From: Arthrinium phaeospermum
Lineage: Eukaryota > Ascomycota > Sordariomycetes > Amphisphaeriales > Apiosporaceae
Reading direction: 5' to 3'
Length of the DNA: 64,000 bases
NCBI GenBank assembly: GCA_006503535.1
Contig: QYRS01000002.1
Location: forward strand, 5,084,001 to 5,148,000
The notes beneath the pieces are model-generated. The model was not told where the DNA came from, searched no databases, and saw only the letters and a list, made by a program, of their open reading frames with translations. The position numbers and the translations under genes are program-made. Shown here piece after piece: positions 7,641-62,208 of the stretch (position 1 is its first letter; every line of letters begins with the position of its first letter).

Positions 7641-8658
7641 GTCTCGATATACTTTCTTGCACCAATGCTCTGGCATTGGCACTGGCTGATGGTTCGGCCG
7701 TGCACTGTCATGTTGAACCATCTAGGCCCTTGTTTAAAAATCTTTCTCTTGATGCGAGTCAAGGGGGTTTCTTTTCTTTCCATCGCCCATTTTCAGGTCC
7801 CTCAACACAGTATGCTACTTCTACAGGGAAATGTTTACAAAATGCGTTTGGCTTGAGATTGACGACGAAGGTAGCTAGGGCGAACCTCTGGTCGAGCAAC
7901 CGTGGAACGTTAGGCACCATGGCGGTGTTCCTGCGGCGTCGTGTGCCTTCAGAGGTCAGCTTATTTCTGCTATGTACTATGGAGGTTGAAAATGCCGCTT
8001 TGGGTCACATTTCTACTACATAATGACCCTTTACTTTATAAGATGAATACAAATTGTTAGTCATCTAAAATCTGACAACGCAACACTGGTTAAGACAGCT
8101 GGTATAGCATTTCCTCTTCTCCGTATACTGTGCACAGCCACTCCAGGGAAAGTATGCATCGCTTATGGCTCACAGCAAGAGAGCTAAGCCACTTCAAGGA
8201 TCAATGCAATCGACCTCTCAGGAGGCTGTATTGTGGAAGCAGGCAAACAGAGACGACTGCTTCCCCGCATGATCCCACCATGTCAGCAATGCTACTATGA
8301 ACATTGACCAGCCACTGGGGATAAATCAACGTTGCGTACAAGTAAATGTCGTGAGCATATGCATTAGTCATCTCGGCTACAAGCGAGGAACGGAGTATAT
8401 CATTTCATGTGGTGAAGGGAATAGGGAATCTATCTATATATGGGGCTCCGATAAGATAAACCGACGGCTTATCGACCAGGCCGACTCGCTCTTCTATGAA
8501 CAAGTATCTTAAGGGGTAACTTGCGCCCACCAAACCAAGCAGCTCGGCCATGTTTTCATTGCTATCTTCACGTCCATCTAGCTAAGTTGCCCATCTCCAC
8601 TCTCGCCTGTCGCCCTCCGGAATATAAATCGACTCAAGTGCGTCTGAATTCAACACCA
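7641..8658. other. Intergenic with 3' UTR of the CCCH gene
   Basis: No coding frame with supporting motifs is seen. The last 100 bases are the 5' flank of the tRNA-Phe gene. Confidence 0.5.
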
Positions 8659-8695
8659 GCGGACATAGCTCAGTTGGGAGAGCGCCAGACTGAAG

Positions 8696-8715
8696 ATCCA
8701 AAACTTCATCAGCCT
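8696..8715 (+). other. Canonical tRNA intron (position 37/38)
   Basis: This 20-nt insertion sits directly 3' of the base after the anticodon. Its internal CTTCA is complementary to the anticodon-loop TGAAG, giving the helix expected for cleavage by the fungal tRNA splicing endonuclease. Confidence 0.85.
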
Positions 8716-8731
8716 ATCTGGAGGTCGTGTG

Positions 8732-8794
8732 GTAAGCAAACCATTGTTTACACTTGAATATTATCGGAGTCGGTTAACTAACAAGACTCTATAG
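8732..8794 (+). other. 63-nt spliceosomal-type intron inside the tRNA T arm
   Basis: It starts GTAAGC, holds a consensus branch site CTAAC at 8778-8782, and ends CTCTATAG, with 13 nt from the branch A to the end. These are the signals and spacing of the protein-gene introns in this window. Removing it exactly rejoins GTGTG to TTCAATCCACAC, a perfect T stem-loop. Its terminal G also keeps the B-box core GTTCAATCC intact in the unspliced gene. Confidence 0.75.
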
Positions 8795-8822
8795 TTCAAT
8801 CCACACTGGCCGCAGTCATTGA

Positions 8823-8831
8823 TTTTTTTTT
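8823..8831 (+). terminator. Pol III terminator of tRNA-Phe
   Basis: Nine consecutive T residues begin nine bases after the discriminator base, and a second T5 run follows. Confidence 0.85.
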
Positions 8832-9104: not shown

Positions 9105-12100
9105 ATGGCGCATAATGAAATTTTGGAGGCGCGCTACGATTATCCCTTATCACCATGGGCCCAGCGCTTCGGGCAGTCGATTCACTTTGTATGGAACGGA
9201 GTCAAGGGCCAGGATCACTCCGGCCTGGCGCCCGCGTATCCGGAGCTGGATGCCCGTTACTATGCCGACGTAGATCCAGCCGGCAACGACCAAAAGCCGT
9301 ATCCCAAACCGCCGCTCGAGGATCTGGATCTGATGTTCCTAAGCGACACGGAACAAAAGCTCCGCCTGGGAGGATTCCGGACGATGGACCTGGGGCCGCT
9401 GCACGAGACCTTGTATGGGGATATCGCGGGCGGGCATCGGAGGCCGCGCGATGCGCAGGAGGAACAGGACAATGTCGCCGCTTTCGACCGGGGCCGGCTC
9501 GTCATCGACGAGAATAAATGGATGCCGTGGCTGCGCAGGGATAACTGGTGGAACAATATCTTGGGCGAGGACAAGAAACGGACGGCGCCGGGACGGAAGA
9601 ACTTCTCCGTGGACGACGAGGAGGTCTGGGAGGCGCTCCGCACCCCCCTCGAACTGGCCAACCGGATAATGAACCTCCTTATTGACACCCGCCACCCGTG
9701 GTACGCCCGGCATAGCCGCTCTCTCCTCTCTCTTTCTCCCTCTCCCAGTGATTCGTATCTATGTTTACTTGAGAAACTGCAGGATGGTGGCGCTGGCCAT
9801 GGGCGACCTCGAGTCCGACCCCAACGACCCCGACGACCCGACCAAGAAGCGCATCCGCCTCAATCCCCAAGATAGCGAAAAGTGGACGGTGGAAGCGCTC
9901 CGGGCAAGGATCCGGCTGATGGGCGATAAGCACATCATTTCGTGCTTCCTCTCGGAGCGGTGGATAATCGACAGCGGGAGACGGGTCCACGGCCTGTGGC
10001 ACTACGTCAACCCTACCGACGAGGAACCCGAGAGCACGGGGCTGCTCGGCATCGCGATACCCCGTCTTCGATGCCTGGTCGAAGGGGATATCACTGTGGC
10101 CGAGAAATGCATGGCCCAGGTCGCTTTGGCTAAAACAGTAAGCAAGCATTTGTGATAAAGGGGGGAGGGGGAAGAACAAGAAAAGCCTTGATACTGACAG
10201 CGCCATGCCAGATTTGCCACGAATCCATGGTATGATAGTACTTGTAGGAACAATTTCCCTTCCACGAAAAAGCTTCTGACTTGGGGAATTATTGTTATAG
10301 CATGCCTTGTACGGGTTTTATGCGAAAAAGGGCGTATTGGAACAAGAGCCAGTAAGTATTGCGGAACCTTCGTGTGTAGCCCCATGCCCTGGCATTCCAA
10401 TGTCGCTGATACATACTCCCAGTTCATCAACGACGAGCTCTCTAGAGAGATTGGGCGCGCTTTCGAGGGTATCGTCTTTGGCGGTGTAAGTACTATCTCG
10501 GACTTGTCCCGCTTGCAGAGTGCTGACTGCAAAACAAAAACGCAGCAAATCATCTCCCATCCGGCAGGCGGGGGCTACCGAACGGCCGAGTCATGGACCA
10601 GTGGCAATTCCATGATCATGACGGCCGTCCCTTGGCCAGTCCGGCGCGACATGAAGAAATACGGCGGCGTGGGGGCCGATCTGTCAGATACGGAAGACAC
10701 GGACGCGATCCCCCTGCTGTGGGTGTCGGCGCTGCTGACGGAGAAGTTCTGGGCGACCGAGGTGGCCAAGCACGGGTGCGAGGCGCTGAAGATGCCGCGG
10801 CTCGTGCGGGTGACGCGCACGTACGGGCCCAACGGCAAGCTGCTCGGGACCAAGAGCAACCCGCAGGCGCACCTCGCGATCGAGACGCCGCTCGACTCGC
10901 TCCGGGACCGGCTGCGGACGACGGCGCTCGACTTCAACAACCGGAAGCTCGGGTGGATCGAGCGGCACCCGTGGTGGAGCGAGGAGGGCTTCAAGTGGAA
11001 CCAGTCGCCGTGGAGGGCCGAGACGTGGCGCTCGGCCGTCAAGACGTTCCGGCTGGCGCACTCGGTCCGCGACGAGTTCCGGGCCTGGCGCGAGGTCGAG
11101 ACGGTCATGCGGCAGTACAGCAGGCGGTCGCGCCGGTCGTGGCTGTACTGGGCCCTGGCCTTGCTCATGCGGGCCGCCATGCCCCTGCGCGACCAGCCCG
11201 CCCGGCAGCCGCGCCCCACGGACGAGTTCCACGACTTGTACGCCCGCAGCAACGCGGCCCTGCGGAACCAGGACCGGCACCCGAACGTGGAGGCCACCCG
11301 GCCGCGGCAGATGGTGTCCCCCGACTACGACTTGGTCACCGTGCCGGCGAGCGAGTACGAGGACCCCCTCGACCAAGGGCAAGACGCAGACGGAGGAGGA
11401 GGAGGAGGAGGAGGAGGAGGAGGAGGAGCCGGTACCGCTACCGCCGCTGCCCCCGCCGCCCCCACCATGCCCAAGAGGCGCATCGTCCACCACACCGACT
11501 GGCTCGACTGCTTCCAGAGCTGGTGCGACGCCCACCAGCGCCTCGACCCCCTGCCGCGGGGCTGGCACGACGCCCTGTCCGAGGCCCACCAGGCGCTGCT
11601 GCAGGCGCGGCGCGACCCGGCCAACTCACGCCGCGACGCCTGGACACCGACCTTCGACTTCACGGTGCCGCCCTACGACGACCGCTGGCAGGCCTGGGAC
11701 CTGGCCCCCGTCGACGGCGAGATGCAGGTCGTCTTCCGCGACGTCCCCGCGCCCCGCAAGTTTCCCAAACCGAAAGTCGTCCCCGGCGCGCAGGTAAAGG
11801 CCGATATGGACGTGCAGGCCCGCGACTTCTTCGCTAGGAACCCGCAGGGGGAGCTGCTGCCGTACTTGACCATTACCGAGGTCGGGGCGCACCGCGGGGC
11901 GGACGATGCTTGGATCGTGATTCCGCGGGCCAATGCTGCGCACGACGTTTACGAGGTGACTGGTACGCTGAGGTCCCTTTTCGTTTGTTTTCTTTTCTCT
12001 CTTCTTTCACACTACCTATTTCCTAATCTTTTCCCTGCCCCCTCCTCCCTCCCCTATGTTCCGAATTCCACGGACGCGAACAGAAAGAAAGCTGACCCAG

Positions 12101-62123: not shown

Positions 62124-62207
62124 GGAGCGGTAGCTAAGTGGTATAGCGTGGGATTGCAGTTATTCGCAATTATCCTAAGGTCGCGTGTTCGATCCACGCT
62201 CGCTCCT
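62124..62207 (+). tRNA. tRNA-Cys (GCA) with 12-nt intron
   Basis: Acceptor strands GGAGCGG (62124-62130) and TCGCTCC (62200-62206) pair fully with one G-T. D stem GCTA/TAGC, anticodon stem TGGGA/TCCTA, variable AGGTC, T stem GCGTG/CACGC and T loop TTCGATC are all standard. The anticodon loop reads TTGCAG, anticodon GCA. A 12-nt intron (TTATTCGCAATT) follows position 37, and its GCAA pairs with TTGC, as expected for endonuclease splicing. A T5 run follows directly. This tRNA has no T-arm insertion, in contrast to the tRNA-Phe. Confidence 0.92.
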
Positions 62208-62208
62208 C

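Follow-up and report, generated by a model that had tools for sequence, protein, structure and literature searches.

By the textbook account, the introns of nuclear tRNAs are found 3' of position 37 and excised by a protein endonuclease, and the spliceosome acts on RNA polymerase II (Pol II) RNA, with U6, a Pol III product, as the best-known Pol III exception. The U6 snRNA genes of fission yeast and other fungi carry mRNA-type introns. According to the cited part of PMC5832005, frequent interruption is known among small structured RNAs for U3 and U6 alone. Introns outside the anticodon loop, position 53/54 included, are described for archaeal tRNA genes in passages of PMC4090602; Cyanidioschyzon and nucleomorphs have tRNA introns at other non-canonical positions, and the tRNA-Phe(GAA) of the Guillardia nucleomorph is among the tRNAs with two introns. 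The same passages tie the archaeal and C. merolae ectopic introns to the tRNA endonuclease and the bulge-helix-bulge, give the splicing mode of very short nucleomorph tRNA introns as unknown, and regard D- or T-arm insertions in eukaryotic tRNA genes, which mostly affect one of many synonymous genes, as supposed pseudogenes. In filamentous ascomycetes, introner-like elements and sister stwintrons are U2 introns that integrate without target duplication, and symmetrical introns proliferate in Hypoxylaceae (sections of PMC8469720). Among the titles and abstract openings listed from the open literature, subscription journals being mostly outside its scope, we found no report of a spliceosomal intron in a tRNA gene; exact-phrase searches of the same literature gave no paper, and the sections cited from PMC6726248, PMC4494063 and PMC11782384 contain no such case.

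The window analyzed here is a stretch of 64,000 nt (C2:5084001-5148000) from a 48.4-Mb fungal assembly of 19 contigs, which was searched as a whole for paralogues and further cases. A tRNA-Phe(GAA) gene occupies window positions 8659-8814 on the forward strand, as do all the features of this locus given below, and contains two interruptions. Exon 1 (8659-8695, tRNA positions 1-37), identical to that of the copies L003-L006 and part of an Rfam tRNA match that runs across the gene, is followed by the canonical anticodon-loop intron of 20 nt (8696-8715); the other five tRNA-Phe copies have introns of 19-20 nt in the same place. Exon 2 (8716-8731, positions 38-53) ends in the T-stem strand GTGTG. 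Here a 63-nt insert, a putative U2-type spliceosomal intron, extends from GTAAGC to CTATAG (8732-8794), with the branch-site motif CTAAC at 8778-8782 (ACTAAC with the preceding A) and 13 nt after the branch A. Exon 3 (8795-8814, positions 54-73) supplies the T loop, the T-stem 3' strand CACAC and the acceptor 3' strand. The insert at 53/54 with these three motifs had been claimed in an earlier note on this DNA, and its coordinates and anatomy were confirmed.

The internal Pol III promoter elements were read from the sequence against their familiar consensuses. The A box, TAGCTCAGTTGG, lies at 8666-8677 and the B box, GTTCAATCC, at 8794-8802, the first G of the latter being the last base of the 63-nt insert. 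A run of nine T residues downstream of the gene (8823-8831) is a likely Pol III terminator; among 40 ARAGORN gene calls examined, 18 had a run of at least five T residues within 40 nt. The word TATAAA at 8623-8628, 36 bp upstream, is a possible TFIIIB site but is not diagnostic, and a TATA-like word occurred within 60 bp upstream of 6 of the 40 calls, mitochondrial genes and duplicate calls counted in. The Rfam tRNA model covered the gene with 33.8 bits against a cut-off of 29, and ARAGORN reported no gene at 8659-8814. At gathering scores, the Rfam matches in the window consisted of two tRNAs and nothing else. A further ARAGORN call at 62124-62208, tRNA-Leu(CAG), is, from its sequence, better read as a tRNA-Cys(GCA) whose anticodon loop holds a short intron, and this tRNA has two further near full-length matches elsewhere in the genome. 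The window also encodes an ESA1-type acetyltransferase with 98% identity to that of Apiospora saccharicola over 92% of the query, which places this ascomycete in Apiospora or near it.

We compared the interrupted gene with five other nuclear-type tRNA-Phe places located in the genome. Exact removal of both introns yields a 73-nt product identical at 73 of 73 positions to four of the five others (L003-L006, likewise compared after intron removal), in line with the earlier claim that excision restores the T stem-loop; L002, on C18, has 7 differences. The acceptor-stem mismatch A5-G68, which had been raised as a hint of a dead gene, is real, but every one of the five genes that share this mature sequence has it; being common to L003-L006, it is no sign of decay. 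The 20-nt anticodon intron retains CTTC, complementary to the anticodon bases GAAG. It is identical to that of L002 in 17 of 20 alignment columns, and to those of L003-L006 at 12-13 positions in alignments of 23-25 columns. Since its anticodon intron is closer to that of L002, the window copy is no recent duplicate of L003-L006, despite the identical exons. L002 itself (C18:92200-92300) is a diverged tRNA-Phe with an ARAGORN tRNA-Glu 114 bp downstream.

A second gene of the same design was found on another contig. The tRNA-Pro(AGG) gene L104 (C13:791581-791731) is likewise interrupted twice, by an anticodon intron of 16 nt and, after position 53, by an insert of 63 nt. This insert, GTAAGTGAC...GACTAACAATACGCAG, shares the 53/54 junction with that of tRNA-Phe and differs from it in sequence, with GTAAGT...ACTAAC...CGCAG as its signals. 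Without both introns, the gene gives 72 nt that match L112 and L113 at all 72 positions; of the five other tRNA-Pro(AGG) places, the remaining three were judged by match length only. The anticodon intron is identical to those of other copies at 12 of 17 and 13 of 18 positions and keeps the anticodon-complementary bases. An 11-T run lies 3' of the gene, and the Rfam tRNA model missed the gene even at E 10. The phenomenon is thus wider than first reported, affecting two different tRNA genes at the same junction. The earlier note read the tRNA-Phe insert as a spliceosomal-type intron; our results support this reading, and it gains strength from the distinct 63-nt intron that tRNA-Pro(AGG) carries there.

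The splice signals of the two inserts were examined in several ways. The putative mRNA introns of the window, which were called by reading-frame continuity alone and therefore include some false ones, have similar donor, branch and acceptor words, in agreement with the mRNA-intron likeness originally noted. A single GTAAGC..CTAAC..TAG match exists in the window; when the whole window was shuffled by dinucleotides 100 times, 4 of the shuffled sequences contained one or more. When single bases were shuffled, intron-type donor, branch and acceptor remained in place in 5 of 1,000,000 permutations of the Phe insert and in 9 of 1,000,000 of the Pro insert; on the 127,876 63-mers of the window (both strands), the Phe insert alone passed the same signal test. 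Compared with the U2-type donor GTRNGT, the borders are GTAAGC...TAG in Phe, which deviates at +6 (C), and GTAAGT...CAG in Pro. For the branch site, expected as RCTRAY at a distance of 6-36 nt from the acceptor (limits given in the relevant part of PMC5832005), both have ACTAAC, with 13 nt after the branch A in Phe and 10 nt in Pro. These results place both inserts among U2-type introns by their borders and branch sites. A group I or II catalytic core does not fit the 63-nt inserts, which are too small for one.

We then considered whether the inserts could only look like mRNA introns and in fact be ectopic tRNA introns, which the tRNA endonuclease would excise by way of a bulge-helix-bulge in the manner known from archaea and a red alga. 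The archaeal 53/54 introns and the other non-canonical sites in Cyanidioschyzon and nucleomorphs, as described in parts of PMC4090602, lend this idea a precedent. However, the predicted folds of both genes contain no bulge-helix-bulge at the junctions, which makes an endonuclease-only route unlikely; in Phe, a predicted hairpin encloses the donor and a predicted helix contains the acceptor. The Phe intron folds more stably than its shuffles (z -3.6, 0 of 200; on repetition z -3.3, 4 of 500), and its 5' splice site falls within a predicted 8-bp hairpin, which could hinder splicing. By contrast, the Pro intron has an ordinary fold (z +0.8) with nothing like that of Phe. The 20- and 16-nt introns occupy the canonical position, one base 3' of the anticodon, and the 63-nt inserts do not. 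Endonuclease cutting would also leave GT-AG, ACTAAC and their spacing in both genes unexplained. We regard it as the least probable of the alternatives.

Another alternative is that the insert belongs to an overlapping Pol II transcript, for example as a 5'-UTR intron of the same-strand open reading frame whose ATG lies at 9105, 291 bp downstream of tRNA-Phe, so that the tRNA would be a by-product or dead. Introns in 5' UTRs are common in fungi. Yet the insert fits the tRNA exactly, the T9 run lies between the tRNA and the reading frame, the reading frame has no Pfam match at E 0.01, and a second tRNA gene has the same design. We hold this alternative to be very improbable.

The main rival is that both genes are redundant copies inactivated by the arrival of a spliceosomal intron, pseudogenes too young for their exons to have drifted. 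Insert-free copies exist, five of tRNA-Phe and five places of tRNA-Pro(AGG) (three of the latter by match length), so both interrupted copies are dispensable and either one may be dead. Pseudogenes are also the usual reading of such insertions in the cited passages of PMC4090602, and the hairpin predicted over the Phe 5' splice site points the same way. On the other hand, none of the 145 mature positions of Phe and Pro differs from the commonest (Phe) or the compared (Pro) copies, and the A and B boxes are intact in both genes, with T runs behind them; for tRNA-Phe, the boxes, the T run and the mature sequence are, as read from the DNA, those of a functional gene. The anticodon introns have drifted while keeping their complementarity to the anticodon, and with identical exons beside them, the exons of both genes look constrained, although gene conversion could be an alternative keeper of the exon likeness among copies. 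Two dead genes with exact excisable borders at the same site and with the B box kept would be a coincidence. The dead-gene option of the earlier note is thus weakened and, in our judgment, improbable, but it remains a more serious contender than any other rival.

Genome-wide screens were performed for further T-arm introns. The first, for CTRAC, a short gap and AG immediately before the T loop, gave 46 matches versus 53 for the reversed-pattern control, so the pattern by itself was not enriched. In all 46, the 200 nt upstream were inspected for GT preceded by a T-stem strand, G-U pairs being allowed, and three were positive, namely the Phe and Pro genes and L054. The last was taken as a chance match; an ordinary tRNA lies elsewhere in its locus. 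The common 53/54 position of the two cases is partly due to searching there. A donor-plus-T-loop pattern gave 9 matches versus 4 in the control, Phe and Pro among them. Three other matches of this pattern (L042, L060 and L103) were rejected for having neither a T stem nor a match to a model of a tRNA plus intron, and one match lies on C19, a contig carrying mitochondrial-type tRNAs. The remaining three matches, C7:90664-90733 (-), C8:2399196-2399267 (+) and C10:1693738-1693822 (+), which likewise combine donor, branch and acceptor with a T loop, may be tRNA genes or chance. Introns ending at most 25 nt before a B box gave 18 pattern matches versus 25 for the reversed-pattern control; cmscan of these 18 loci found a tRNA in one only, an ordinary Arg(TCT) gene by ARAGORN, and the set was discarded.

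A covariance model of a tRNA with a 53/54 intron, trained on the Phe and Pro genes among others and therefore biased toward them, scored these two at 119 and 120 bits and the other seven entries (ordinary tRNAs and U6) at 32-57 bits. A search of the genome with thirteen more mature tRNAs, covering 57 matched pieces with 40 of 46 candidates scored and a further 35 pieces with 30 of 30 scored, showed no further T-arm split; short exon pieces can escape such a search, as happened to the 3' exon of L104, 20 nt long, when the tRNA-Pro(AGG) copies were located. Several side observations came from these searches. In a tRNA-Pro(CGG)-like gene at C1:3168531-3168683 (+), 98 nt separate pieces 1-18 and 37-73; the anticodon intron seen in the other copy is too short to account for this distance, and no GT-AG intron was found exactly after index 18. 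The halves of a tRNA-Lys(CTT) at C3:1063590-1063709 (+) are 100% identical to the query, which was taken from intronless copies, but index 37 and index 38 are separated by 47 nt, a candidate intron of either the canonical or the mRNA type. For Ala(AGC), two similar places, C11:2524133-2524168 (-) and C2:4932387-4932433 (-), match the 5' part only (index 1-36 and 1-48, respectively), and their remaining part may be diverged, interrupted or lost.

With regard to origin, the earlier note had offered a mobile, introner-like intron as one option, and by this account such elements would recently have landed in two tRNA genes. Introner-like introns with stable folds or inverted repeats are known in fungi, sister stwintrons occur in Hypoxylaceae (both in sections of PMC8469720), and the Phe intron is more stably folded than its shuffles. 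However, a genome search at E 10 with the Phe insert, the sole query, returned the insert itself and no second copy, so that the near-identical copies expected of an introner are lacking for this insert. The two introns are not significantly alike: none of 500 plain shuffles aligned as well, but 847 of 6000 did so when the splice motifs were held fixed, and homology is not claimed. The Pro fold, moreover, is ordinary. The junctions of both inserts share just one ambiguous G, which means no target duplication. Taken together, the missing copies of the Phe insert, the single shared G and the lack of significant similarity give no sign of a recent mobile family, and recent introner mobility appears highly unlikely. 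From their sequences, the Phe and Pro introns appear to have been gained independently or long ago. An introner origin can in any case be compatible with a spliceosomal-intron reading, since it concerns where the introns came from.

We also examined whether the genome holds another Pol III gene with an mRNA-type intron. The U6 gene L038 (C4:2470400-2470560) contains, in its conserved region, an intron GTAAGT...TTACTAAC...CACAG, within which lies the B box-like sequence GTTCAAATCC. Because U6 is made by Pol III, the spliceosome probably already handles one Pol III RNA in this fungus, as judged from the gene sequence. A second U6-like locus, L039 (C11:298368-298480), is diverged and intronless. 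The two U3-like loci of the genome (L080 and L081) showed no obvious intron by eye, and a U3 intron was dropped as a precedent in the same genome.

Transcription by Pol III can be expected to start on both tRNA genes as they stand. The B box consensus is GWTCRANNC. The last G of the intron stands at G53 of the B box, leaving this consensus intact in the DNA of both genes, as the earlier note had argued for tRNA-Phe, and an intact B box is what allows initiation to be expected. The distance from A box to B box is 128 bp in Phe and 123 bp in Pro, and long spacings are tolerated in yeast. In the mechanism that we propose, Pol III would transcribe the gene from the A box and the intact B box, giving a precursor with two introns, one in the anticodon loop and one of 63 nt in the T arm. 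The anticodon intron would be cut out by the tRNA splicing endonuclease and the ends sealed by tRNA ligase; the T-arm intron would be removed as a lariat by the spliceosome, restoring the T stem-loop and a normal tRNA-Phe. The tRNA-Pro(AGG) precursor, with the same two-intron arrangement, would undergo the same two reactions. Two intron types per gene mean that two unrelated splicing machines would be needed. We infer all four elements of this scheme, namely Pol III transcription, spliceosomal removal, the order of the splicing steps and use of the product.

Among the three options of the earlier note (spliceosomal removal, a mobile intron or a dead gene), spliceosomal removal of the T-arm insert from the Phe precursor fits best. 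We estimate a probability of about three in four that the inserts are U2-type spliceosomal introns in tRNA genes, which the spliceosome would clear from Pol III precursors while the endonuclease takes the anticodon introns. With somewhat better than even confidence, we further propose that some nuclear tRNA genes of this fungus form a hidden class, in which the Pol III precursors need both endonuclease and spliceosome. In this class, introns would have been fixed repeatedly at 53/54 because their terminal G keeps the B box whole, and the genes, missed by standard tRNA finders, may be widespread in ascomycetes. ARAGORN overlooks the Phe locus and the Rfam model the Pro gene, so counts of such genes may be too low. 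If these proposals hold, tRNA biogenesis would be partly under spliceosome control, the precursors would be natural substrates for asking what admits the spliceosome to Pol III RNA, and tRNA genes would join the targets of intron gain.

The arrangement can be set against each of the known systems. Like canonical eukaryotic tRNA genes, the Phe and Pro genes have one intron each after position 37; the 63-nt inserts lie elsewhere and are of mRNA type. Unlike the ectopic introns of archaea and C. merolae, the inserts are GT-AG introns with a branch site and without a predicted bulge-helix-bulge. They differ from introner-like elements in that the Phe insert has no near-identical copy and the host is a tRNA gene. 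Fungal U3 snoRNA genes resemble the present cases as structured small RNAs with U2-type introns, but they are not tRNAs. The fungal U6 introns are similar to the tRNA inserts in being GT-AG introns with a branch site inside a Pol III small-RNA gene. In contrast to U6, the host RNA here is a tRNA rather than a component of the spliceosome, and a second intron needs another enzyme; in U6 L038, the B box-like motif lies inside the intron, whereas the tRNA introns lend just their last base to complete the B box. The two tRNA inserts most likely extend a known phenomenon, the spliceosomal intron within a Pol III gene, to tRNA genes.
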